Below, piece after piece: positions 2,969 to 22,292 of a DNA stretch of 22,292 nucleotides. Both the position numbers and the translations under genes were made by a program. Below the pieces are notes generated by a model. That model ran no database searches, was not told where the DNA came from, and worked only from the letters and a program-made list of their open reading frames with translations. Origin of the DNA: a virus; IMG/VR virus record IMGVR_UViG_3300014492_000034, positions 1-22,292 of that record. One strand, written 5' to 3'. Position 1 is the first letter of the stretch. Each line of letters begins with the position of its first letter.

Positions 2969-3472
2969 ATGACCGAACCGATCCGAGGATTCCGAGGCGA
3001 GCACGCCTGGCTCTCCAACTTCCACCCGTGCTCCGTGAGGGTGTCGGGCGTCGTCTACCCGTCGGCGGAGCACGCCTACGTCGCCATGAAGACCGACGTC
3101 CCGGAGATCCGCGCGGAGGTCGCCCTCCTGCCGAAAGCCGCCCGGGCGAAGGCCTTCGGGCGGAACAAGAACTTCCGGCTCCGGGAGGGCTGGGACGAGC
3201 TGAAGCTGGGAGCTATGTACGTCGCGGTGCAGTCGAAGTTCCACCAGTGCCCCGACCTCGCGGAGCGGCTCCTCGAGACCGGCGACGCGCGCCTCGAGGA
3301 GGCCAACGACTGGAACGACCGGTTCTGGGGAACCGTGAACGGGGACGGCGACAACTGGCTCGGCGTGATACTCCAAACGGTCCGGGACGAGCTGCGGTCG
3401 GGGGCGTCCCTCGAGCGGGGCGCCCTGACGGCGATCCACGCGTTCGTGGCGACGCGCCGACCCTGCCCATAA
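2969..3472 (+). CDS. NADAR (YbiA-like) domain protein
   Basis: 167 residues, essentially one NADAR domain. Recognisable features: the N-terminal GFRGEHAWLSNFHPC block, the YPSAEHAYVAMK block (residues about 29-41), a central KAFGRNKNFRLREGW segment and the C-terminal FWGTVNGDGDNWLG block near residue 115. NADAR proteins are N-glycosidases: some act on riboflavin-pathway intermediates and some remove ADP-ribose from guanine in DNA, counteracting DarT-type toxins. Here the gene sits just after a tRNA gene in an accessory operon; AGGAAACACC precedes ATG 2969. Family assignment is secure, while the substrate is not shown by the sequence; an anti-defence role is inference. Confidence 0.85.
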   Translation: MTEPIRGFRGEHAWLSNFHPCSVRVSGVVYPSAEHAYVAMKTDVPEIRAEVALLPKAARAKAFGRNKNFRLREGWDELKLGAMYVAVQSKFHQCPDLAERLLETGDARLEEANDWNDRFWGTVNGDGDNWLGVILQTVRDELRSGASLERGALTAIHAFVATRRPCP

Positions 3473-9739: not shown

Positions 9740-10317
9740 AGCTTCCTCCGCTTGAAGGGGCACACCCACTCCTGGAACCAGAAGCCGCGCGCGTCAACCG
9801 TATAGTTCCCGGGAACGTCGAGCGGAAGCTGGGACGGTAGGACGACGCGCGCTACGGGTTGACCATCCGCGATCCAACCATTGGCCAGCACCGCTCGGCG
9901 CAGCTCGTCGTAGTCCGAGAGCTGCCCGATCGCTACCGACATGCGCTCGACGCTCTCGGACTCGACAAAGTCCTCAACTTTCTCGAAGACGATCCCGCTC
10001 CGCCAGGCGTCCGAGAAGCTGTCGTACCTCTCGCGGTGCTTCCACCCGTCGGCGATCATGGCGTGCTCGATCACCTGGAAGTCTTTCTCCGTCACCGCCT
10101 TGACGGTCACGCTTTGCTTTATTCTGTGCGTCTTGGGAGGCTCCCGCTTGATCGGGAGCGGTTCGGCGGCGCGCTCGATCGCGCGCTTGAACAGCCAGAG
10201 GTTCTGAGCCACATGGGTCAGTTCCCAGCCCTCCCTGCCCATGGAGCTGAGCCACGTCTGGTAGTTCAACCCAGGTGGGTAGTTGTACGCTACCTTGTAT
10301 TCCCAGTAGGTCGTCAT
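9736..10317 (-). CDS. DUF4177-like protein between clamp-loader genes
   Basis: 193 residues from ATG 10317, overlapping the stop of gene 44 (ATGA). The first 45 residues have the DUF4177 pattern: WEYKVAY, then a LSSMGREGWELTHV block and FKRAIER. A linker rich in Pro and Lys leads to a second part (residues 75-193) with alternating strands and helices and a Trp/Phe-rich end. The function of DUF4177 is unknown. Its position between the two clamp-loader genes, coupled to both, suggests it is made with them, but no interaction is shown. Confidence 0.65.
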   Translation of the reverse strand: MTTYWEYKVAYNYPPGLNYQTWLSSMGREGWELTHVAQNLWLFKRAIERAAEPLPIKREPPKTHRIKQSVTVKAVTEKDFQVIEHAMIADGWKHRERYDSFSDAWRSGIVFEKVEDFVESESVERMSVAIGQLSDYDELRRAVLANGWIADGQPVARVVLPSQLPLDVPGNYTVDARGFWFQEWVCPFKRRKL

Positions 10318-11258
10318 TTCTTGAACTCCGTGTCGATCATTATCTCCACACACATCGCAGCGGTGTTGATCTCCTGGTCCACCACCCGCGCCGCCATATC
10401 TTGATATTTGGCCAGGATCAACACCAGTTGTGGGACGGATTGGGGGGTCATCAGGTCCGAGGCCCGGTCGTAGAGGGCCCTCACCAAGCCCGAGGAATCG
10501 CCGTCCAAGTTAACTCCAATCCATCGCCTGCACCCCGTAAAGTCTCTGTCCCTCAGGTATCCCCAGAGCTCGTCCACGTTGGTCCTCGCCCTCGCGAGGA
10601 CGCCCGAGTCTATCCGCCCGGTCTCCTTGGAGTATGCCTGGAGCTCGTTGAGGACGCGTCGCCAATCGGGATAGTACCGCACGATGACTTCGGCGACCGC
10701 GGCTACCTCGTACTGCACCCCCTCGGCGTGGAGTATCTCGTGGAGCTTCTTGAGGAACTCGGACGCCAGCTTCTTCGACTCCGCCTTCGTGGGCTTGAAG
10801 TCGATAACGGCGCAGCGACTCTGCAGCGCTGGGATGATGCGGTCGCGATAGTTCGCGGTTAGTATGAACGAAGCGTTTTGCGAGAACTCCTCCATGAACG
10901 AGCGGAGAGCCGGCTGTGTCAACGGCGTGAGGTAGTCGGACTCGTCGAGTATGATATATTTTCGGCCCCCCGTCAGCGACACGGACGAGCAGTAGCACTG
11001 GATGTCTGTGCGCAGGGTGTCGATGTTTCCATGCAGCGAGGCGTTGATAACGATGTAGTCGGCGCCTATCTCCTCCACCATGGCTCGAGCCGCGGTCGTC
11101 TTACCGACACCGGACGATCCCACGAACAACATATGGGGAACGTCTCGCTCGTCAACGAGCTTCTGCAGCGTCGCTTTCAAGCGCGTCGGAAGGACGCACT
11201 CGCTTATCTTCTTGGGTCGATACTTCTGCGCCCAGATCACGTCGTTGAGGATCACCAA
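10314..11258 (-). CDS. 44: Clamp-loader ATPase large subunit, T4 gp44-like
   Basis: 314 residues, an AAA+ ATPase of the T4 gp44 / RFC type. Walker A is GSSGVGKT (residues 47-54), Walker B IILDESD (102-108), sensor 1 in ILTAN (132-136) and the SRC arginine-finger motif at 147-149. QKYRPKKISECVLP at the start and TPQSV near residue 270 are typical of gp44. It drives ATP-dependent loading of the sliding clamp with gp62. The start is TTG 11258 or, three bases on, GTG 11255; AAGGAG lies upstream of both. It follows the winged-helix-like gene after 12 bases and shares that gene's promoter. Confidence 0.95.
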   Translation of the reverse strand: MVILNDVIWAQKYRPKKISECVLPTRLKATLQKLVDERDVPHMLFVGSSGVGKTTAARAMVEEIGADYIVINASLHGNIDTLRTDIQCYCSSVSLTGGRKYIILDESDYLTPLTQPALRSFMEEFSQNASFILTANYRDRIIPALQSRCAVIDFKPTKAESKKLASEFLKKLHEILHAEGVQYEVAAVAEVIVRYYPDWRRVLNELQAYSKETGRIDSGVLARARTNVDELWGYLRDRDFTGCRRWIGVNLDGDSSGLVRALYDRASDLMTPQSVPQLVLILAKYQDMAARVVDQEINTAAMCVEIMIDTEFKK

Positions 11259-12466: not shown

Positions 12467-12672
12467 TATCGTACGTCCGCTTCCGTGCTTACCGTGATCC
12501 CGTAGTCCTCGGGCTTAAAGACGAGCCGCATCTCCTCGCGCATCGAGCGCATTACGACGCCCACGTCGTGGAGCTCCTCCATGAGGATGCCCTCCGCGGT
12601 CTCGAGCTCGGTGTAGGTAGCGCCGCGGAAGCGCCCCAATTTACGAGGCTCTATGTCCCTCAGGCTCTTCAT
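12466..12672 (-). CDS. Hypothetical small protein
   Basis: 68 residues directly after the clamp gene, with ATG 12672 overlapping the clamp's stop (ATGA). A basic N-terminus leads into a long Glu/Met-rich helix (about residues 22-50). The position next to the clamp is reminiscent of T4 rpbA, which neighbours gene 45, but no sequence likeness to RpbA is seen. Confidence 0.65.
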   Translation of the reverse strand: MKSLRDIEPRKLGRFRGATYTELETAEGILMEELHDVGVVMRSMREEMRLVFKPEDYGITVSTEADVR

Positions 12673-13334
12673 TCGAACTTCGAATCCTTCTCAACTGAGA
12701 TGAAGTACTCAGCCGCCTCGCCGACCCAGTGGGATATGCCCTTCTCGGTCAGCTTCACCGTGTAGGCGCTGGGAAGCAGCTTCAGGTTGTCGATCTTAAA
12801 CAGGGCGCGGAACTTCTTTCCCGGGGGATCGGCGTCCACCTTGACGGAGTAGTCGTCGTTGGTGGTCCCCTTGGCGTCCACCGCCTGAAGGAACACGGAC
12901 TCCCCGTCGCCCGTCACCGCGATCTCATTCAGGCCGAGGACCCGCAGGGCGGAGGTCGCTGCCTTGAGAACAGCTTCCGGAAGGTCCACCTCGACGTACG
13001 TCGGGGGCATCGCGATGTCCTTCGTCGGCGCCGCGACGATCATCGACGGCTCGGCGAGTGCGTAGCGCAGGGCGCGCCCCTCGGAGACCGCGGACACGCT
13101 CTTGGCCGTAAAGGTTAGGTCTGGATCGCCGAGGAGGGAGAGGGCGTTGAGGAACCGGCTGAGGTCGTATATGGCGAACTCCGTCTCGAAGGCGTCCGGC
13201 ACCGTGGCGCGGGCCATCACCGTCTTTCCGGGATAGGATATGGTGGACAGTAGGCTGCCCGGCCTCACGAGGATGGAGGGATTTATGCTCGCGAAATTGC
13301 GCAGCACCTTGATAGTTTCTTGAGACAGCTTCAT
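12669..13334 (-). CDS. 45: Sliding clamp, T4 gp45-like
   Basis: 221 residues matching T4 gp45 in length and pattern: an N-terminal MKLSQETIKVLRNFASIN, an FAIYDLSRFLNALSLL block (about residues 52-67) corresponding to T4 FDVAIYDLNGFLGILSLV, a central EPSMIVAAPTKDIAMP, and a C-terminal AAEYFISVEKDS. gp45 is the trimeric ring that holds the polymerase on DNA and also activates late transcription in T4. GAAGGGAAATAGG precedes ATG 13334. The gene is third in the transcript from the promoter at 13765-13793. Confidence 0.92.
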   Translation of the reverse strand: MKLSQETIKVLRNFASINPSILVRPGSLLSTISYPGKTVMARATVPDAFETEFAIYDLSRFLNALSLLGDPDLTFTAKSVSAVSEGRALRYALAEPSMIVAAPTKDIAMPPTYVEVDLPEAVLKAATSALRVLGLNEIAVTGDGESVFLQAVDAKGTTNDDYSVKVDADPPGKKFRALFKIDNLKLLPSAYTVKLTEKGISHWVGEAAEYFISVEKDSKFE

Positions 13335-13764: not shown

Positions 13765-13793
13765 ATTATATCACCCGAACGCGCCCGTGTCAA
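13765..13793 (-). promoter_or_regulatory. Perfect consensus sigma-70-type promoter
   Basis: On the minus strand TTGACA (13793-13788), 17 bases, TATAAT (13770-13765): both boxes match the consensus and the spacing is ideal. The predicted start is near 13757, about 19 bases before ATG 13738. The -35 overlaps the last codons of the glycosyltransferase gene. It drives the clamp gene and downstream genes. Confidence 0.93.
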
Positions 13794-14818
13794 CCCTTTG
13801 CGCGTCGACCCGCGCGCTTGGACTTCGCCGGCTTCTGCGACTCTAAGATCGCCGCGTCCATTTGATCGCGACGGCTCGGGGGCTTCGCTGGCTCGTCGGA
13901 TTTAATCAGGGGAGTAGGAGTCATAACCGGGGGCATCGCACCCACGCGCGGTGCTCCTCTATTCGGCTGTCGCTTGTCCTTACCCAAGGCACCCGGGTCA
14001 GCGGTCGCCGCGACGCCGATGCTGGCCAAATCAGCCAGGGATCCGCCGAAGATGTAGCTGCCTACGTGCTGCAGGTGCATCCACGGACAGAACCAGCAGT
14101 GCATGCCGGCCTGCTGCGCCTTCTGGCTGAACCAGTAGTCTTCGCTGAGGTACCTCTTGGAGACGGGATCTATCTCCGCCTGAAAGAACTGCATTATTTC
14201 TCGCGACCCATCGAAGTGTTCAGTACGCACGTGATCGGGCTTGTACATGTACTGGGGATAGCTATTTGCAAACGTTTGCATAGCTTCTTTATGCACCATC
14301 ATGAATCCGGTCCCGATCTCCAGGACCTCAACGGGTTCGTTGAGGGGGATCTGCGCCTGCCCGCTCTTGGGATTGAACACGTAGTCCCCGACGAACTTCT
14401 CGAGGACAGTAGCGTCCTGGTCCGCCACGCCCTTGTCCACCGCGTGCTTGATCTTCTCCCACGAGATGCACTTCTTGGGGTACGGCCCGCCGATGATGTG
14501 GTACTTGGGGTCCTGAACCTGAAGAGCCATGAGCGCGAGGACGTCCTGCGGGGAGAATCCGATGTCGGAGTCGATAAAGCACAAATGTCCACATTCAGAC
14601 CGCATAAATTCATCGCAGCAATAATTTCTGGCTCTTGTAATGAGACTCTCATTGAACAAAAAATACAGCTGCATCTGTATCCCATATTGGTTACAGAGCG
14701 AAGTAAGGTCCGAAATGCTCTTACAAAACATTCCCGAACAAGCGCCCCCAAACATCGGCGTAGCCACAAAAAGTTTCCGCTCGCGCAGACGTTCAATTGG
14801 GCAATTTATCTCCACCAT
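13790..14818 (-). CDS. GT-A fold glycosyltransferase
   Basis: 342 residues. The first 250 form a GT-A type (GT2-like) domain: a KLFVATPMFGG strand, an ITRARNYCCDEF segment, the metal-binding DSD motif at residues 83-85 inside CFIDSDIGFSP, a GGPYPKK block and a LEIGTGFMMVHKEA acceptor-site block. The C-terminal 90 residues are Pro-, Lys- and Arg-rich and look disordered. Such enzymes occur in many T4-like phages; together with agt and gp42 it could add a further sugar to hydroxymethylcytosine, or instead glycosylate a virion protein. Its 5' end is AT-rich and overlaps the GIY-YIG endonuclease gene by 26 bases. Confidence 0.8.
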   Translation of the reverse strand: MVEINCPIERLRERKLFVATPMFGGACSGMFCKSISDLTSLCNQYGIQMQLYFLFNESLITRARNYCCDEFMRSECGHLCFIDSDIGFSPQDVLALMALQVQDPKYHIIGGPYPKKCISWEKIKHAVDKGVADQDATVLEKFVGDYVFNPKSGQAQIPLNEPVEVLEIGTGFMMVHKEAMQTFANSYPQYMYKPDHVRTEHFDGSREIMQFFQAEIDPVSKRYLSEDYWFSQKAQQAGMHCWFCPWMHLQHVGSYIFGGSLADLASIGVAATADPGALGKDKRQPNRGAPRVGAMPPVMTPTPLIKSDEPAKPPSRRDQMDAAILESQKPAKSKRAGRRAKG

Positions 14819-15470
14819 TTTTTATCCTTTCAAAATATCTTTTCCGCCCAAGACCAATGTTAGCCCTTGTCTCAGGGGAACGCTTCTGTCCGCGATTCTT
14901 TTTCGCGGCTTTCCTGATTCTCTCAGGATTCCTTCCTGTCTCAGCAGCCCATGGACGTGGAATGCCCTTGGTTTTTGCCGACACTTTCTTACCAGTCTCT
15001 GCTAAGATACGCTTACCATCTTCACTCTGGCAAAACGCCTTCTGTGAGTCGCTCTTGCGCTTTCGAGACTCATCGGACCACTTCTTTCCCTTAGCCTGAG
15101 GCTCATTGTTCTCTAGCCACTCACGCTGCTTCCTGCTGAGATGTGCCTTTACTTCATCAGTGTGCGGGAAGTCATGAACCGGACACTTTCCTTCATTCCA
15201 ATTCAGCCACCTTGGGTTGTGTCGTACCCGCAGCCGTCGCAGCACCCGATGCTCCCACGAACGTGCACTATCCGCAGCCTCAAACGTCCGCCTAACCTCT
15301 CGAATGTCTGGAGGACCATATTGCCTTATGTATGCAGCGACCTCCTCAGACGACGTAAAGTACGTCACCCATAAGTCGTCGGGACTACATCCAACAGCGT
15401 ACCGCACGCCGTAGTACCAACGATCAAGCGCGCTCCAGCCCACGAGGTACGTGTAGGGTAGGTAGTTCAT
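14793..15470 (-). CDS. GIY-YIG homing endonuclease
   Basis: 225 residues. The N-terminal 90 are a GIY-YIG nuclease of the phage type: YLVGW (8-12) and YYGVRY (19-24) form the divergent GIY...YIG core, VRRTF carries the conserved Arg, Glu73 in SWEHRVL is the likely catalytic Glu and WLN (88-90) closes the domain. The Lys/Arg-rich rest has NUMOD3-like repeats (KKWSDESRKRKSDSQK; GQKRSPETRANIG) that bind DNA. The 3' half of the gene is much more AT-rich than the phage, a sign of transfer. ATG 15470 abuts the lysozyme stop. It is a free-standing mobile gene, not inside an intron as far as can be seen. Confidence 0.85.
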   Translation of the reverse strand: MNYLPYTYLVGWSALDRWYYGVRYAVGCSPDDLWVTYFTSSEEVAAYIRQYGPPDIREVRRTFEAADSARSWEHRVLRRLRVRHNPRWLNWNEGKCPVHDFPHTDEVKAHLSRKQREWLENNEPQAKGKKWSDESRKRKSDSQKAFCQSEDGKRILAETGKKVSAKTKGIPRPWAAETGRNPERIRKAAKKNRGQKRSPETRANIGLGRKRYFERIKNGGDKLPN

Positions 15471-16003
15471 CAGTGCTTGTGGCCGTGCGGGTGCTTGTGA
15501 GCCTCGTGCGGTTGGGTCCAGCGCATGCTCGGCTTCCTGCTGAGGTACTCGTACCACTGCTCCGACCGCAGCGCCCGCTTCGCTGCTTGTCCCGGTGCTC
15601 CGGCGCGCTCGTAGTACTGGCAGGCTACCGAACCTGCCTCCGACGCTGTCGTACATGCTTGGACTTTAATCAAAGCTCTTTCTTCAAGCAATACGTTGGT
15701 AAGCTCCCACCACACCGCTTTATGCTGGTCCGCGATGCTCGGGAGAGTGGTTAGGTCGACGCCGGTCGCGTCCTTGATGACGGCGGCGCGGTCGGTGTGT
15801 ATCTGGTACAGTCCCCACGCCGTGTAGTCGTCCCCCTTCTTGTCCCCGAACGCCGTGGGATTCAAGCTGCTCTCGGCGTCCGCTTGCGCCAGCATGCCGC
15901 AGGCCTGCTCAGGCGTGAGCTTCGCGACCTGCGTCCAAAAGTCGTATATCTCAACGGCGTTCGCGTAGTACTGGCTGTTGGACAGACCGGTTCTGTATCC
16001 CAT
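15470..16003 (-). CDS. Phage tail lysozyme-type muramidase
   Basis: 177 residues. The first 140 have the phage tail lysozyme pattern: GMLAQADAESSLNP with probable catalytic Glu44, then AWGLYQIHTDR, corresponding to the GlfQW...R block of the family. It would hydrolyse or lyse peptidoglycan glycan strands. The end is His-rich (HEAHKHPHGHKH), an unusual natural metal-binding tail. No signal peptide. Its place among DNA-modification genes rather than tail genes is odd. ATG 16003 follows AAAGGAGATCGACTAAC. Confidence 0.7.
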   Translation of the reverse strand: MGYRTGLSNSQYYANAVEIYDFWTQVAKLTPEQACGMLAQADAESSLNPTAFGDKKGDDYTAWGLYQIHTDRAAVIKDATGVDLTTLPSIADQHKAVWWELTNVLLEERALIKVQACTTASEAGSVACQYYERAGAPGQAAKRALRSEQWYEYLSRKPSMRWTQPHEAHKHPHGHKH

Positions 16004-16018
16004 GTTAGTCGATCTCCT

Positions 16019-17167
16019 TTATGGACAGCACGCGGCGCCGTCAGCTTGCATCCACGGCCGTCCGGTCACGATGTTGAGGGCGCGGTTGGGCAGGTACACC
16101 ATGTCCTTGACGGGCCTTCCGTGTATCTCCTTCTCGACGTCGACCTCGCACATGGCGCGTCGCTTGATCTCGAAGTCGTTGAGGTCGCGGGTACCGTACA
16201 GCTCGCAGACGCGCTTGCCGTCCACCTGAACAACGATCTTTCCAGCTTCCACTTCGGGGGGCCTTACCCACGTGGGATCGTCGTCCTCGCCAATCCGCGG
16301 AGTGCCGTCGTCGCTCATGCGCGTGGTGCCGCGTAGCTTCAGGAGCTCGGTGCCCCCCACTGCTGCATGCCGCGGGCTCAGGGGCGGACCAAACCACGTC
16401 TTGTCTCCCTGTGTATCAAGGACCCTCACGGTCTCCTGCACCGCCGACTGCGACTGCAGCTTCTTGGTCTCCTCTTTGTCCCTCGCGATCGCTTCGTCAA
16501 CCTCTCGCACCCAGCGACCCGGCACGCTTTCGAGGACCTCTTCATCCTCGCCCATAGTCTTAAGAGACGCCAGCTCATTGGACCCTTCAGTAAACGTATT
16601 GGAAGCAGCGATCGCAGCGTCCAGCAGCTGCTGCTGCACCGCGTCGATGATGGGGCTCGAGAGGGTGGAACCCTGTTCCTTGTCGTGGACGTACAGCGCC
16701 AGCAGCGCGTAATGAGCCGTCTTCACCAGGTCGTCGCGGTTGTACCCACCCTTCTTGCCGTAGCGCGACGCGTACTTCTGAACGTTGCCGACGGTGAACC
16801 CCCGTCCGTTGCCGGAGGAGAATATAACGTCCAAGGACTGCACGTTGTCCTCGCCGACGTAGTGGCCGCGGTACGTGTCGTCGATGTACTTCTGCAGCTC
16901 GCGGACGAGCTCGTCCTCGCGGTACTTGTAGTTGGTGACGACGTCGCACATGTTGTTGCCAAGGTCGACGACCGTGAAGGGCTTGGACATGTCGCGCTGC
17001 GGGACAGACTTTGCCTGGTCCGCGGCGAAGTGTCGTGCGGGAAGGTCGTTGTGGTACACGTTGTAGGGCGCGGCGGTGTTCGCATCAGCTTTTCCGCACA
17101 TACCCGCGCTCGGCACCGCAAAGTTGGTGTTCTTGTGTTCCTTGTTCTTATCCCATAGAACGCTCAT
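16019..17167 (-). CDS. DUF3310-like domain protein
   Basis: 382 residues. Residues about 102-160 match the DUF3310 (SaV-like) pattern found in many phages: HYVGEDNVQSLDVI, GFTVGNVQKYASRYGKKGG and DDLVKTAHYALLAL. In phages it is often fused to nucleotide-related domains, but its biochemical role is unknown. The N-terminal 100 residues are polar; the C-terminal 150 contain a Trp/Pro-rich segment and a strand-rich part (KIVVQVDGKRVCELYGTRD) that might be a separate domain, ending in Cys-Cys-Pro. ATG 17167 overlaps the methyltransferase stop (ATGA). It is likely co-expressed with it. Confidence 0.6.
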   Translation of the reverse strand: MSVLWDKNKEHKNTNFAVPSAGMCGKADANTAAPYNVYHNDLPARHFAADQAKSVPQRDMSKPFTVVDLGNNMCDVVTNYKYREDELVRELQKYIDDTYRGHYVGEDNVQSLDVIFSSGNGRGFTVGNVQKYASRYGKKGGYNRDDLVKTAHYALLALYVHDKEQGSTLSSPIIDAVQQQLLDAAIAASNTFTEGSNELASLKTMGEDEEVLESVPGRWVREVDEAIARDKEETKKLQSQSAVQETVRVLDTQGDKTWFGPPLSPRHAAVGGTELLKLRGTTRMSDDGTPRIGEDDDPTWVRPPEVEAGKIVVQVDGKRVCELYGTRDLNDFEIKRRAMCEVDVEKEIHGRPVKDMVYLPNRALNIVTGRPWMQADGAACCP

Positions 17168-18390
17168 GACACAAACTCCTCCAGTGTAGCCGGCTCGTCC
17201 TCGTACCTAACGGTCTTCGAGGCGTTGAACTGATAGACGTAGGGAGCGCTCGTGGTCTCCCTCCTCCCCTCCAGGTAGGCTAGGACCTCGGAGGACATGT
17301 CCGCGGCGGTTTGCACCGGCACGTTTTGGCATATGTGGTTGGACGACTTCTCGGGATCCAGCAGCTCGAAGTCGTCCGGCATGCCCATGATGGTCATCGC
17401 CTCGCGAAAAGTTATGTAGCGGTCCTCCGTCGGGTGCGCCAGCATATGGGGATAGTGCCCGACAAAGGCGCCGATGTGGTCGCGGGGGATGCAGGTGTTG
17501 CGCTTCATGATGCCGAGGCCCGCAGCGAGCTTGGCGCCGCGCCTCTCCGCCTTATCCGCCTCTCGGTCCAGTCCCTGGGCACGCATCCACCGGGCGATGT
17601 CGTCCTCGGTGTGTCCCTGGTTCTGGATGTAGGACAGGACGTCCATCTGTTTCAGGTTGGTGACGATGGGTTGGGACTGACTGAACTCCCGGTGGGTCAT
17701 CCCCGGGTGTATGACTTCGAGGAGGTAACGGTAGATCGGGTCGTCCCTCGACGGGGTCTTGGGATTGATCGGTTCCATCTGGAAGTTGGAGGTCACCCCC
17801 GTGATGAGGTCCTCGATCTTCTGATAGGGTCTGTCGTACCAGTCCAGGATCGGCGTACGGTTACCGCGCCAGAAGAAGTAGAAGGACCTCTCGCGTACCT
17901 GGGGGAGTCCGTGGAGGAGTGTCTTCGTCCGGTACACGGTCATGGTGTACCCGTTGTCCACACCGATACGCCTCATGTTCTCGCGTATGTTCTTGCCGAT
18001 CTTGCCAGCGAACCCCGGAGCGTTCTCGCCCCAATAGACGTCGGGTCTCAGGGTACCCATGACGTACTCCGCTACCAGGGGCAGCCACACGTTGTTGGGG
18101 TTGTCGTCCCCGTAGCCGTGCGATATGGTGGATAGACCGGCACAGGGACAGGTGGAGTTCACCGCGTCGTACGTACCGACGCGGACTCCCGAGGGAGGGA
18201 CGCCTCCCTTGTCCAGAACGTAGTAAGGGACGTCCACGCCGCGCTGGTCGTACCAGTGGAGCAGGTGCTTCTCGTTGGGGGCGAAGGCCTCGTAGGAGAT
18301 GAGGGCGTCGGGAGGGGTCCCGAAGGCACGCTCGGCGCCCATGGCCATACCGCCGATGAGGGGGACTATGGAGGCGTGTCTCACTGTCAT
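17164..18390 (-). CDS. DNA C5-cytosine methyltransferase (Dcm/Dnmt family)
   Basis: 408 residues with the ordered motifs of C5-cytosine methyltransferases. Motif I: LIGGMAMGAERAFG (11-24); motif IV: CPCAGLS with catalytic Cys83; motif VI: GENAPG with Glu122; motif VIII: QVRER (164-168); motif IX: FREAMTIMGMPDDF (328-341); motif X: QNVPVQTAADM (355-365). The variable target-recognition region lies at about 180-320. The catalytic residues are present, so it is probably active; the DNA target is unknown. ATG 18390 overlaps the stop of an HNH-AP2 endonuclease. Possible jobs: protecting unmodified C in viral DNA, or making 5mC as a base for further modification. Confidence 0.88.
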   Translation of the reverse strand: MTVRHASIVPLIGGMAMGAERAFGTPPDALISYEAFAPNEKHLLHWYDQRGVDVPYYVLDKGGVPPSGVRVGTYDAVNSTCPCAGLSTISHGYGDDNPNNVWLPLVAEYVMGTLRPDVYWGENAPGFAGKIGKNIRENMRRIGVDNGYTMTVYRTKTLLHGLPQVRERSFYFFWRGNRTPILDWYDRPYQKIEDLITGVTSNFQMEPINPKTPSRDDPIYRYLLEVIHPGMTHREFSQSQPIVTNLKQMDVLSYIQNQGHTEDDIARWMRAQGLDREADKAERRGAKLAAGLGIMKRNTCIPRDHIGAFVGHYPHMLAHPTEDRYITFREAMTIMGMPDDFELLDPEKSSNHICQNVPVQTAADMSSEVLAYLEGRRETTSAPYVYQFNASKTVRYEDEPATLEEFVS

Positions 18391-18863
18391 GAATGTGCAA
18401 ACTCCCCATGATATACACGGGCCGCGTTATTGTAAGCGGCTGCCGCTTCTTCAGCGCTATCAAATGTACCTAAATGTATGCGCTGGTTGTCAAAAGCTAT
18501 CGAAGCACTGTGTCTGTTGCCGTCACTACACACTCCTTTGTAGCCGGATGTATTATTTCGAAGCTTGCCACGGTGTTGTTGGTTCTGTCCTTGCGTACAT
18601 GTACGTATCTCGTTCCAACGATTGTCACATGTATCAAAATGTTTGTGATCGACTTGGGGAGGCCACTCACCTGTCATATAAAAAACAGCGAGTCGATGCG
18701 CTAGATATTGCTTTCCGTCTATGTGAACGTAAAAATAGCCATTCGACCCACGATGCCCAACAGGTTTTCCCACAAGCTTCGTGTGATGTGACTGAAGAAG
18801 TGTCCAATTTCCCGTCTCGGGATCGTAGCTAACTTTTTCTTTCAGCCGTTCAATCGTTAGCAT
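18387..18863 (-). CDS. HNH-AP2 homing endonuclease
   Basis: 158 residues. The HNH_3 nuclease core is AHRLAVFYMTGEWPPQVDHKHFDTCDNRWNEIR (in pieces at about residues 55-87; His56, Asp72-His73 and Asn81 or Asn84 are the likely active-site residues). An AP2-type DNA-binding domain follows at 105-155 (TSGYKGV, then RIHLGTFDSAEEAAAAYNNAA). This is a common free-standing phage homing endonuclease. Its sequence is more AT-rich than its neighbours, which points to recent entry. It overlaps both neighbours by a few bases, yet leaves agt and the methyltransferase intact. Confidence 0.93.
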   Translation of the reverse strand: MLTIERLKEKVSYDPETGNWTLLQSHHTKLVGKPVGHRGSNGYFYVHIDGKQYLAHRLAVFYMTGEWPPQVDHKHFDTCDNRWNEIRTCTQGQNQQHRGKLRNNTSGYKGVCSDGNRHSASIAFDNQRIHLGTFDSAEEAAAAYNNAARVYHGEFAHS

Positions 18864-20083
18864 AATTCCTCAATCATTTTCATCGTATCAGCAAAGACGT
18901 AGGAAGAATCCTGATGGAGCTTATAAAAAGCAAAAGCTTTTTCACGCATCTCATCGCGCAGTACATCGTCGGACGCAATTCTATTTATCTCCGCCCACGT
19001 GCCTGCCATATCGTCATCATCAAACCATATAGTACCATGGTCGCGACACTTTGTCAATGGCACGTCATAAATTCTGTGACGACAAATATCACCAAACTTT
19101 TTCCTAAAAACTGGCACAACACCTACCGACGCTATTTCTGCATGTGTGTACTCTATGGACTTCTCGACGTATTTGGGGTTCAGGAGGGACAGCTGGTACC
19201 CGAAGCCGGCGCGAGACATCCTCTTCATCATGGTGTCGTTCTCGTACTGGGAGAAGACGACGACGGGTCCTCCCCGGTGGGCGTCCACGTCGACATCGTG
19301 GTACGGCAGGGACGAGTTGCAGTGGTTGACGAACGGGGCATACATCTTAAAGTCCAGAAAAGCGGGAGACTTGTCGATCCCCTCCATCATGGAGACGCAG
19401 CGCGGGTCCTTCCGGATGAAATTCTCATGGAAGGTCATGAACTCGCGATATCCCTTCCATTGGACGGTGCGGCCCACCCACTTGTGGCTGCGCGGGTCCG
19501 TCTCCTCGATGGGCTTCCAGTACTTTGCTCGGGCAGCGTCGAAGTCGAACGCCGGCTGGAACGCAGCGACCGCCTTCGAGCTGCGGTCCTCCCCCGCGAG
19601 GATCGCCGAGACGTCTCCCTCCCAGTCGTCCAGCATCGCGCAGAAGTCGTTGCTCCGTGAGTGGACGAAGATGAGGTTGGCCCGCGCCATCGCTTCGTCC
19701 ATGCAGCGGTTGCGCAGGATGGACAGCTTGTTGTGATCGTGAACGTACATCACAACTGGCGGCTTGATAGCCGCGAGCAGTCCCGCGAAGTTCTCCACCT
19801 CCGCGACGGAGGCGTCCTTGGGAGGCAGGGAGTTCACGACGACGCAGTCGGAGAGGTTGCACGCGTCCAGCACCTCCTGCATCTCCTGAGGGCGCGAGAA
19901 GAAGTGGAGGCTGAGGCCGTCGATGTCGTGGGAGTACTTGCGGGGGTAGTTCTTCTCCTTGGACGCAAGGACGCGGCAGCGGTAGCCCGCTGCGTTCAGC
20001 CACCGGGAGAACTCAGCGGTGTGCTTGCTTACACCACAACCTTCCACACCACGACCTAAAATTATTGCTACATTCTTTATCAT
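18857..20083 (-). CDS. agt: DNA alpha-glucosyltransferase, T4 Agt-like
   Basis: 408 residues, very similar in order of motifs to T4 alpha-glucosyltransferase (400 residues as I recall). Shared blocks: RGVEGCGVSK (11-20), SHDIDGLS (51-58), HDHNKLS (115-121), WVGRTVQWKGY (202-212), MEGIDKSPAF (233-242), SGFGYQL-type AGFGYQL (292-298), EYTHAEI (311-317), GTIWFDDDDM near residue 349-358 and HQDSSY before the end. T4 Agt is a GT-B enzyme that moves glucose from UDP-glucose to 5-hydroxymethylcytosine in DNA. This fits gp42 six genes upstream. ATG 20083 overlaps the preceding stop (ATGA). The 3' end of the gene is AT-rich, where an HNH gene follows. Confidence 0.93.
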   Translation of the reverse strand: MIKNVAIILGRGVEGCGVSKHTAEFSRWLNAAGYRCRVLASKEKNYPRKYSHDIDGLSLHFFSRPQEMQEVLDACNLSDCVVVNSLPPKDASVAEVENFAGLLAAIKPPVVMYVHDHNKLSILRNRCMDEAMARANLIFVHSRSNDFCAMLDDWEGDVSAILAGEDRSSKAVAAFQPAFDFDAARAKYWKPIEETDPRSHKWVGRTVQWKGYREFMTFHENFIRKDPRCVSMMEGIDKSPAFLDFKMYAPFVNHCNSSLPYHDVDVDAHRGGPVVVFSQYENDTMMKRMSRAGFGYQLSLLNPKYVEKSIEYTHAEIASVGVVPVFRKKFGDICRHRIYDVPLTKCRDHGTIWFDDDDMAGTWAEINRIASDDVLRDEMREKAFAFYKLHQDSSYVFADTMKMIEELC

Positions 20084-20274
20084 TGAGAACCACGCTTCTT
20101 ATAGGGCCCTCGTGGTCCGCGCTTATCGCAGCACCTGCCACGTCTAAATCCTTCAGGAGGTACATCATTGAACGCAACGCGTACATCCGCACTACCATTG
20201 GTGTACCAATAGAAGTCGCACTCGCCCTTCTCAAAGCGATCAAGGTCGCGCTCGGAAAGCGCCGCCGTCTTGAT
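20080..20274 (-). CDS. Hypothetical 64-residue protein without a canonical start codon
   Basis: The frame ending at TGA 20082-20080 overlaps agt's ATG exactly as other coupled genes do, and its product looks real: a helical start, CDFYWYTNGSADVRVAFNDVP, then a Cys/Arg-rich end (FRRGRCCDKRGPRGPYKKRG). But between the in-frame stop upstream and its end there is no ATG, GTG, TTG or CTG. The best start is ATC 20274-20272, ten bases after AGGAG, giving IKTAALSERD where a Met would be expected. Other options: +1 frameshifting from the dCMP deaminase frame (they overlap by 35 bases), or a mutated ATG. No family recognised. Confidence 0.5.
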   Translation of the reverse strand: MKTAALSERDLDRFEKGECDFYWYTNGSADVRVAFNDVPPEGFRRGRCCDKRGPRGPYKKRGSQ

Positions 20275-20833
20275 AGAAGTACCGCTCCTGTGTGTCGTGT
20301 CCGGTGCACAGGTGTTCCGGCAGCGGCGCGCCGGTGTTAGCCTCGCGGTACAGCGGGTGCTGGGTATCGTTCATCTCCACGTTGTCGAAGTTGTACATCA
20401 CCCACTCAATGCCGACCTCCCGGAACATGGCCTGGGTGTACTCAACGAACGACTCGAGCCACTTGTCGGAGATGGGAAACCGCGACCTCATGACGAGCCG
20501 ACCCACGCCGGCCTGGACGAGGGACTTCGCGCAGTCGGCGCACACCGGCACGCCATGGACGTACATCGTGGCGCCGTCTAGGGAGACTCCGTTGTACGCT
20601 GCGCTGAGGACGCAGTTCATCTCCGCGTGCACCGTCATGGCGTACTTTGACTCGCGGTGCATCAGCCTCTCCTCGGTGTCCTTGACTCCCCGGGGAAATC
20701 CGTTGTACCCCGTCGAGAGTATCTGGCGCCGACCGTTAACGGCGACCGCACCCACACCGATCGAGGGGTCCTTCGACCACGTCGCGATCTGAGCTGCGAT
20801 ACCGAGGAAGCGTTCGTCCCACTTCTCAAGCAT
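20240..20833 (-). CDS. cd: dCMP deaminase
   Basis: 197 residues, a zinc-dependent deoxycytidylate deaminase. Visible are STGYNGFPRG (40-49, nucleotide site), HAEMN with His69 and Glu71, and CADC with Cys98 and Cys101 as zinc ligands (here preceded by PV rather than the usual P). It converts dCMP to dUMP, feeding thymidylate synthesis and controlling the C/T pool, which matters when gp42 also draws on dCMP. The C-terminal 50 residues (from about 150) are an extension I do not recognise. ATG 20833 overlaps the previous stop by a few bases. Confidence 0.88.
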   Translation of the reverse strand: MLEKWDERFLGIAAQIATWSKDPSIGVGAVAVNGRRQILSTGYNGFPRGVKDTEERLMHRESKYAMTVHAEMNCVLSAAYNGVSLDGATMYVHGVPVCADCAKSLVQAGVGRLVMRSRFPISDKWLESFVEYTQAMFREVGIEWVMYNFDNVEMNDTQHPLYREANTGAPLPEHLCTGHDTQERYFYQDGGAFRARP

Positions 20834-21017
20834 TGAGATCCTCCAGCACCTTCTTCGCGGCCTCGAGCTCCTCGACGTAGCTGGGACCGGTGTAGGGCGC
20901 GCCGTGAATAAATGCCGATTCCCACACTGCTAGGTACTGGGGATCATTTTCTATGAGGTCCAGCTTCTCCACCAGGTCCCTCAGCGCCTTCTCAATCGGC
21001 CAGCAGCAGTCGCTCAC
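20826..21017 (-). CDS. Hypothetical small acidic protein
   Basis: 63 residues from GTG 21017 (GTGA overlap with the preceding stop). Helical at both ends (PIEKALRDLVEKLDLI; YVEELEAAKKVLEDL) with an aromatic turn between (WESAFIHGAPYTGPS). No family recognised; it is probably part of the nucleotide-metabolism transcript only by position. Confidence 0.7.
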   Translation of the reverse strand: MSDCCWPIEKALRDLVEKLDLIENDPQYLAVWESAFIHGAPYTGPSYVEELEAAKKVLEDLNA

Positions 21018-21331
21018 GCTGCGTCTCCCTGCGGTACGATGACGTCCGGCCCGCACTCGTCGGGATCGAGGACCGTGATGAACCCCCTCTTCCTTTCCGG
21101 TTCAATGCCTCGCAGGTAGTCGTTGTCCTCGTCGAAGACGCGGAGGAACTCCCCGTCGTCGATCACCCGGTGCGACACGCTCATCTCCCCAAGGTGCAGC
21201 TGCGAGACCTCCGTCGCTTCATCCATTGTCACAGTATCCAGAGCCCACTCAGGGTCGCCGGCGTCGCCGACGTCCACGACGTACCTTATCCGGTGTTGGC
21301 TGATCGTCTCGACGAGTACCAACTTGCTCAT
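21014..21331 (-). CDS. Hypothetical protein, T4-like phage type
   Basis: 105 residues from ATG 21331, with AGAGGGCGG upstream. Strand-rich start (LVLVETISQHRIRYVVDV), an acidic middle with SQLHLGEMSVSHRV, then FLRVFDEDNDYLRG. A similar ISQ-RxRYVV...DEDNDYL pattern is, to my recollection, found in small uncharacterised proteins of marine T4-like phages. Function unknown. Its 5' part overlaps the next upstream ORF by 83 bases in another frame. Confidence 0.7.
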   Translation of the reverse strand: MSKLVLVETISQHRIRYVVDVGDAGDPEWALDTVTMDEATEVSQLHLGEMSVSHRVIDDGEFLRVFDEDNDYLRGIEPERKRGFITVLDPDECGPDVIVPQGDAA

Positions 21332-21443
21332 GTTCCGCCCTCTCGCGCTCTATCATCCTGTATATCCACTGTATGTTGGGGTCCCGTTGAACGGAGGCCA
21401 TCAGCTGCGCGGGGAAGTCTCCCCAGTCGATAGACGACTTCAT
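21249..21443 (-). CDS. Hypothetical small basic protein with poly-Arg tail
   Basis: 64 residues from ATG 21443, overlapping the stop of gene 42 (ATGA). The first 40 residues look natural (helix QLMASVQRDPNIQWIYRMIERERAE in pieces); the tail ends in RRGRRRRRRP and is encoded in the region shared with the downstream gene. The coupling supports translation, but the long overlap means the real end could reflect constraint from the other frame. Confidence 0.55.
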   Translation of the reverse strand: MKSSIDWGDFPAQLMASVQRDPNIQWIYRMIERERAEHEQVGTRRDDQPTPDKVRRGRRRRRRP

Positions 21444-22114
21444 TCCTTCACCAGGTGGAAGTGCTTCTCGTATACGTGGAGGCTGCTGGCGTGCCAGTAG
21501 ATGTCGCCCGCCTCGACGACGGCGTCTTGACACGTGTTGAGGTCGCGGATCATGTATCTTTGCATGTACTCAGCCCACGCCCTGTCGTTCTTATAGCCGA
21601 ACACTACGTCATTGGAGCGCATCTGCACCAAGACATGGAGCTTCCCGTCCCTAATGAGATACTGCACCGCGTTGGTGCACATGAAGTCGCCGCGACCCCT
21701 GTCGTTGTACTCGAGCCAGATCCTCGGGCGTGTGTGGATGACCACTGCCCTGCGCGAGTACGGGTTCTTCTTTAGCTCCTCCAACGCGTGGTTGTACTGG
21801 AAGTAGTTATCGCGGTGCCAGTTCACCCAACCGTAGTTGCTGGTGATGAGGCCGTCCTCACCGGCCACGGCCTTCCACACCTCGGGCGCCCCTCCGGGGA
21901 AGTCGTTGACGCTGAGCGATTGGCTTATGTACCAGTCGATCTCGCGCTGGACGTAGTCCCAATTGACGGTGCCGAAGATCGCCGGCTCGTCGGCGACGAA
22001 GGTGGCGCCGACTATTTCCAACATTTTACAGCCCGTCTTATCGACGACGAACTCCTCGATCGCGAGCTTGTGGACGAACTCCTCGCGGACGTCTCGACAG
22101 CACCAGTGCTTCAT
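21440..22114 (-). CDS. 42: dCMP hydroxymethylase, T4 gp42-like
   Basis: 224 residues, close to T4 gp42: FVVDKTGCKMLEIVGATFVADEP (in pieces at 22-44), SNYGWVNW (92-99), GDFMCTNAVQYLIRD with catalytic Cys146, MRSNDVVFGYKNDRAW with Asp177 and SLHVYEKHFHLV (211-222). In T4 the matching residues are, as I recall, Cys148 and Asp179; the Asp replaces the Asn of thymidylate synthase and gives preference for dCMP. The enzyme makes 5-hydroxymethyl-dCMP with methylene-tetrahydrofolate. ATG 22114 overlaps the previous stop (ATGA) and matches the family's start; a longer in-frame extension is rejected. Confidence 0.95.
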   Translation of the reverse strand: MKHWCCRDVREEFVHKLAIEEFVVDKTGCKMLEIVGATFVADEPAIFGTVNWDYVQREIDWYISQSLSVNDFPGGAPEVWKAVAGEDGLITSNYGWVNWHRDNYFQYNHALEELKKNPYSRRAVVIHTRPRIWLEYNDRGRGDFMCTNAVQYLIRDGKLHVLVQMRSNDVVFGYKNDRAWAEYMQRYMIRDLNTCQDAVVEAGDIYWHASSLHVYEKHFHLVKE

Positions 22115-22292
22115 AGGATGCGGCTCCCGTCCTCGCGAACGGGACAACCGAGAACTTCCTTGGCCCCCGCGGCTATCTCCCTGCGACCCACGTCGGTGGC
22201 GGCCTTTGGCCACGCAGCTAGTATGTCTCCCCCGTCCATGGTGGGTTCAGCCGGTCGGTGCTCGTGATATATCACCGCAGCGTCTCGAAGCA
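22111..22292 (-). CDS. C-terminal part of a cut hypothetical protein
   Basis: An open frame enters from the right edge and ends at TGA 22113-22111, overlapping the gp42 start (ATGA). Some 59 residues are visible, with HEHRPAEPTMDGGDIL and AATDVGRREIAAGAKEVLG segments. It is the gene transcribed just before 42. No family is recognised from the fragment. Confidence 0.65.
   Translation of the reverse strand, partial: LRDAAVIYHEHRPAEPTMDGGDILAAWPKAATDVGRREIAAGAKEVLGCPVREDGSRIL

Follow-up and report, generated by a model that had tools for sequence, protein, structure and literature searches.

Why would a phage that appears equipped to build its DNA with hydroxymethylcytosine (hmC), a base that already carries a group on C5, also encode a cytosine C5-methyltransferase? 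The question is raised by a 22.3-kb IMG/VR fragment of a T4-like phage (IMGVR_UViG_3300014492_000034, positions 1 to 22,292; hereafter the window), which carries genes for the gp45 clamp, the gp44 clamp loader, and the translational regulator. The hmC genes and a C5-cytosine methyltransferase (MTase) homologue all lie on the minus strand. An earlier note, made from the letters of this DNA, had called their proximity paradoxical, and the paradox stands. The gene content of related phages points to the MTase homologue as a dedicated part of the phage hmC module that would act on the phage's own DNA, and we tentatively favour hmC, or cytosine used with a nonstandard cofactor, over plain cytosine as its substrate. 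The genes on which the argument turns are as follows.

21440..22114, minus strand: gp42, a T4-type dCMP hydroxymethylase, which makes hydroxymethyl-dCMP (phmmer against T4 gp42, 1.8e-76)
20240..20833, minus strand: dCMP deaminase (PF00383, 1.6e-18; phrog_174, 1.6e-45)
18857..20083, minus strand: DNA alpha-glucosyltransferase, AGT (PF11440, 1.3e-70; T4 AGT structures, 1e-84, full length)
18387..18863, minus strand: HNH endonuclease with an AP2 domain, a probable homing insert (PF13392, 1.7e-7; phrog_99, 1e-58)
17164..18390, minus strand: MTase homologue with aberrant cofactor motifs (PF00145, 8.4e-10)
16019..17167, minus strand: DUF3310 protein, a constant downstream neighbour whether or not the gp42/MTase module is there (PF11753, 1.8e-9)
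13790..14818, minus strand: phrog_1574 protein, glycosyltransferase-like by eye (phrog_1574, 2.7e-57; no Pfam match)

Hydroxymethylcytosine genes in the window

The matches to gp42, dCMP deaminase, and AGT agree with the earlier prediction of glucosylated hmC. Window gp42 keeps the catalytic Cys in DFMCTN and carries the dCMP-type Asp in FGYKND, in place of the thymidylate synthase Asn; an RS-D-G-ND motif is kept in 53 of 54 relatives. An alternative GTG start lies upstream at 22213 but is less likely. Zinc motifs of the deaminase (HAE and PVCADC) were seen by eye, and AGT aligns with T4 AGT from end to end. Because gp42 matches its T4 counterpart and retains both diagnostic residues, and because AGT matches over its full length, the observation is sound and far beyond chance, and these genes predict glucosylated hmC in the DNA. 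A gp56 dCTPase was not found in the window or in the fragment records but was found in a complete relative, Pseudoalteromonas phage XG4 (~41% identity).

These three proteins are clear homologues of members of the T4 hmC pathway (gp42, gp56, AGT). Unlike in T4, a C5-MTase is here tied to the pathway, and relatives swap AGT for many sugar and hypermodification genes. We know of no C5-MTase in the T4 pathway. The ends of the HNH and MTase genes overlap (ATGA), as do the MTase stop and the DUF3310 start, so the hmC genes and the MTase are likely carried on one transcript.

Pairing of gp42 and the MTase homologue

Relatives of the MTase occur on at least 598 IMG/VR stretches, the best 80 at 52–59% identity. 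A first set of loci was picked by the MTase. In nearly every locus of sufficient length, gp42, usually with the deaminase, is found upstream, and downstream come DUF3310, phrog_1574, and the clamp. Since these loci were chosen by the MTase, the link to gp42 could not be judged from them. Single-protein baits in IMG/VR returned only two loci for gp42 and one for AGT, and the presence/absence test was therefore anchored on phrog_1574, a neutral neighbour found with and without the module. Among loci in this second set with enough sequence, 11 have both gp42 and the MTase, 17 have neither, and none has only one (Fisher 4.7e-8, uncorrected for kinship). On the tree, gp42 changes ~10 times and the MTase ~8 times; ~3 informative contrasts agree and none opposes, too few for significance. 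Whole-record searches found that contigs of 73–173 kb without gp42 are also without the MTase, and on GTDB contigs that carry MTase relatives (~42–45% identity) gp42 is present wherever the contig extends far enough. Two loci, L033 and L066, were considered as cases of the MTase without gp42, but their contigs seem truncated and end just beyond the deaminase. By gene content, the pairing is a conserved module. This coupling and the aberrant cofactor motifs described below go beyond what the earlier note had claimed. No description of the association was found in the literature searched, of which coverage is incomplete, and its novelty is therefore provisional.

Between the deaminase and the MTase, relatives carry a variable set of exchangeable sugar and hypermodification genes. 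Its members include AGT, UDP-galactopyranose mutase, epimerases, UDP-glucose dehydrogenase, nucleotidyl transferases, and myo-inositol phosphate synthase, together with TET-associated-type glycosyltransferases (TAGT) in a few relatives, a weak hmdU-kinase-helical match, and a pyridoxal phosphate (PLP)-type enzyme. The matched ends of AGT and the MTase (tblastn) are 6–12 nt apart in 19 of 21 loci with a full-length AGT. The window has the simplest form of the module, AGT alone plus the HNH insert. The HNH-AP2 gene sits exactly between AGT and the MTase, and its 5' part is seemingly disrupted in the near-identical contig L082.

Several clusters predict unusual sugars or groups on hmC by way of a uronic acid route, galactofuranose, or inositol phosphate (L045 5352-7980, L058 4038-5039, L064 1954-2862, L080 2496-3689, and L073 2029-2874). 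Proteins with an NPPY motif, resembling adenine N6/cytosine N4 methyltransferases by eye, occur in some hmC clusters (L037 4295-4957, with no Pfam match, and L045 4603-5319). At L164 9012-12760, gp42 is followed by a 382-aa protein, a threonine-dehydratase-like PLP homologue, and a third protein, a possible amino-type modification of hmC. The 5hmC carbamoyltransferase clusters found by MetaGPA are likewise environmental phage contigs that combine a thymidylate-synthase-fold gene, a deaminase, and hmC-decorating genes; they differ in that no C5-MTase is named in the searched part of that text (PMC8670742). No carbamoyltransferase was matched in the scanned slot proteins.

Conserved catalytic residues and altered cofactor motifs

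The window MTase passes the Pfam cut-off for PF00145 (39 bits against 22). Across 48 aligned sequences, the nucleophile Cys83 and Glu122, Gln164, Arg166, and Arg168 are invariant, providing the PC, EN, and QxRxR catalytic residues. Motifs IV, VI, and VIII, which handle cytosine, are intact, and the general form of motifs IX and X is kept. An AlphaFold2 model (pLDDT 86.7, pTM 0.86), folded from an alignment with two rows from the annotated collection left out, was compared with known structures by VIA-align and matched M.HaeIII (Z 24.0 over 274 residues) as well as M.HhaI and DNMT1 (both ~23). From the invariant residues and these structural matches, the protein is expected to fold and to handle cytosine like a C5-MTase.

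On the cofactor side, the family is unlike M.HhaI, M.HaeIII, and Dcm. In an alignment with Dcm and phage MTases, motif I reads SIVPLIGG against DLFAGxGG, so that the Asp, the Phe, and the first Gly are gone; the family has Val or Ile at HhaI Phe18 and Leu at HhaI Gly20. The motif II acid (HhaI Glu40) varies among E, S, K, D, and T in the 48 sequences. The motif X Asn (HhaI Asn304), aligned through M.HaeIII, is replaced by an invariant Gln355 (48/48). The adenine-contacting Asp60 is kept in 44 of 48. The family thus departs from the canonical C5-MTase signature of motif I FxGxGG, motif II Glu, and motif X Asn. Scores against TIGR00675 (dcm) are 17.8 bits for the window MTase and 53.3 for that of XG4, both below the cut-off of 100.65; an hhalign comparison of the family with a single Dcm gave a match too weak to use. 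The phrase "intact catalytic motifs" in the earlier note is therefore correct for motifs IV, VI, and VIII, which handle cytosine, whereas it does not fit motifs I and II and part of X, which serve the cofactor. These changes suggest, rather than prove, an altered cofactor or substrate. MTase-positive contigs have no CG or GC depletion relative to MTase-negative ones, in a comparison of sets that differ in G+C.

A TET/JBP module at the same slot

Three sister contigs without gp42 and the MTase carry other modification genes in the slot. A TET/JBP dioxygenase is present in all three (PF12851, 1e-18 to 1e-22), and two of them have an amino acid:DNA transferase (ADDT; PF18724). A P-loop kinase was also identified (PF18751 in the one scanned). 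These modules occupy L087 6996-9280, L091 3108-9396, and L153 5856-9649. A search of 41 records, with the sister contigs as positive control, found TET in 20, the MTase in 15, and both in none (Fisher 1.1e-6; 1.6e-5 for the 35 neutrally anchored records; both uncorrected for kinship). On the tree, 6–8 switches between TET and the MTase are needed, with few branches well supported. The gp42-MTase and TET/JBP modules thus appear to swap at one genomic slot, and the neighbouring genes suggest thymine as the target of the TET module.

As the earlier note had said, no TET-like gene was matched among the window proteins scanned, the window being a genome fragment. The wider search that it proposed, for a dCTPase and a TET gene, located gp56 in XG4 and TET in the 20 sister records; records with the MTase had no TET.

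Distant carriers of the MTase family

Pseudoalteromonas phage XG4, S-TIM5-type cyanophages, and Bacillus phage G also carry members of the MTase family, in each case together with a homologue of the dCMP-type hydroxymethylase. In XG4, gp42, sugar genes, the MTase, and the gp56 dCTPase form one 8-kb cluster. S-TIM54 has an Asp-type ThyA ~2 kb from its MTase homologue. The homologue in phage G, gp301, is near gp306 (annotated as an alpha glucosyl transferase), and an Asp-type thymidylate synthase paralogue is ~13 kb away. PF12851 had no match in the XG4, S-TIM54, or phage G genomes. Among cultured Tevenvirinae, the groups that carry ordinary C5-MTases have no hmC genes (PMC8056088); the Slopekvirus checked had thymidylate synthase only of the Asn type.

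Candidate substrates of the MTase homologue

If the homologue acts on hmC, gp42 and the dCMP deaminase would supply hydroxymethyl-dCMP, hmC would be incorporated into DNA, and AGT would add glucose. The MTase homologue would come in after gp42 and work on the DNA that the phage has replicated. Once an hmC is flipped out, Cys83 would attack its C6, and at target sites the group on C5 would next be replaced, taken off, or built upon. The ordinary C5-MTase M.MpeI forms covalent complexes with hmC in vitro, from which dehydroxymethylation was inferred (PMC11347137). We lean toward hmC, or cytosine with an unusual donor, because of the dependence on gp42, the gp56 neighbour in XG4, and the changed cofactor sites. 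The broader proposal is conceivable, although we hold it with less assurance: that a C5-MTase fold now serves to modify hmC in DNA, and not cytosine, as a standing hypermodification step in a large group of environmental T4-like phages and in several distant ones, with exchange of the gp42-MTase module for a TET/JBP module at one slot.

Several points weigh against this interpretation. Asp60 and the motif I GG are retained, so S-adenosylmethionine may still bind. T4 makes glucosylated hmC without any such MTase. The dCTPase was found only in XG4, so replacement of cytosine in the window phage may be only partial, though XG4 has its MTase next to a gp56-type dCTPase. One locus, L164, is a real exception, with gp42 but no MTase in its 15 kb. 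L164 and T4 both have gp42 alone, which suggests that the MTase depends more on gp42 than gp42 does on the MTase. Coupling at the level of the module does not by itself point to a substrate.

A serious rival, second to action on hmC, is that an ordinary S-adenosylmethionine-dependent C5-MTase methylates leftover cytosine and so shields it both from restriction by the host and from C-specific nucleases that the phage itself encodes. This would account for the gp42 link, and it fits the retention of all catalytic residues and the true C5-MTases that are the nearest folds. A related role has been proposed for the ordinary C5-MTases of hmC-less Tevenvirinae, which would offset DenA and dCTPase (PMC8056088). 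Harder to reconcile with it are the changes in motif I, motif II, and the motif X Asn, and the presence of the MTase beside a dCTPase in XG4, where little cytosine should remain. The family is also found in only eight cultured-phage records, against over a thousand with gp42-like genes. Sequence alone cannot decide between these two accounts.

Transfer of a group other than methyl is unlikely. Here a modified S-adenosylmethionine or another donor would place a different group on cytosine C5 as a second handle. The precedent is CmoX, a phage cytosine C5-carboxymethyltransferase defined by SPPC and an Arg at the HhaI Asn304 position, through which phage C5-MTases can switch donor (PMC12783734). 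Like CmoX, the window protein is a C5-MTase homologue that a phage encodes within a hypermodification cluster, and it is changed at that position, in this case to an invariant Gln; 8yf3 is among its nearest structures. However, the window family has CPC and Gln instead of SPPC and Arg, it is linked to gp42 and not to CmoA, and a scan of the window-module and slot proteins brought up no CmoA/CmoY-like gene. Free cytosine would be required here too.

Still less probable is the proposal in the earlier note that the MTase acts early or on host DNA, to which a role as a DNA-binding regulator may be added. Free cytosine is abundant only in host DNA, but methylation of host or incoming DNA gives no reason for the tight link to gp42, and family members persist in phages that infect cyanobacteria, Pseudoalteromonas, and Bacillus. 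Least credible is the route, also raised there and known in some phages, in which the MTase makes 5-methylcytosine, TET turns this into hmC by oxidation, and AGT then adds glucose, all in parallel to gp42: C5-MTases do stand beside glycosyltransferases in both settings, TAGT-type enzymes among them in a few relatives, but the route is contradicted in this clade because TET and the MTase never co-occur (0/15 MTase records with TET).

Other features of the window

The remaining annotated features are listed below.

21014..21331, minus strand: small open reading frame of 105 aa between gp42 and the deaminase (no Pfam/PHROG match; also in the near-identical contig L082)
20826..21056, minus strand: small open reading frame of 76 aa (no Pfam/PHROG match)
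12669..13334, minus strand: gp45 sliding clamp (PF09116, 8.5e-11)
10314..11258, minus strand: gp44-like clamp loader (PF21328 Gp44_lid, 2.9e-9, plus AAA)

Window DNA had no nucleotide-level match in the phage collection. A second homing-endonuclease-like gene lies at 14793-15656 (phrog_314, 5.7e-8), and a NADAR-domain protein is encoded at 2969-3472 (PF08719, 4.1e-22). Upstream of the clamp gene, at 13765-13793 on the minus strand, is a perfect sigma-70-type site (TTGACA-17-TATAAT with TG).

Implications

To our knowledge, action of a C5-MTase on a modified base is known only from side reactions in vitro. If the MTase homologue does act on hmC, a textbook enzyme fold would be used in nature on a base that had been modified beforehand, and the label "DNA methylase" would be wrong for a widespread phage gene. 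The clusters of relatives, including those with hmdU-kinase-like and PLP enzymes, point to a range of hmC decorations, which may not have been described before. The exchange with a TET/JBP module would offer a natural comparison between phages that are otherwise alike, some with cytosine-based DNA armour and others perhaps with armour based on thymine.

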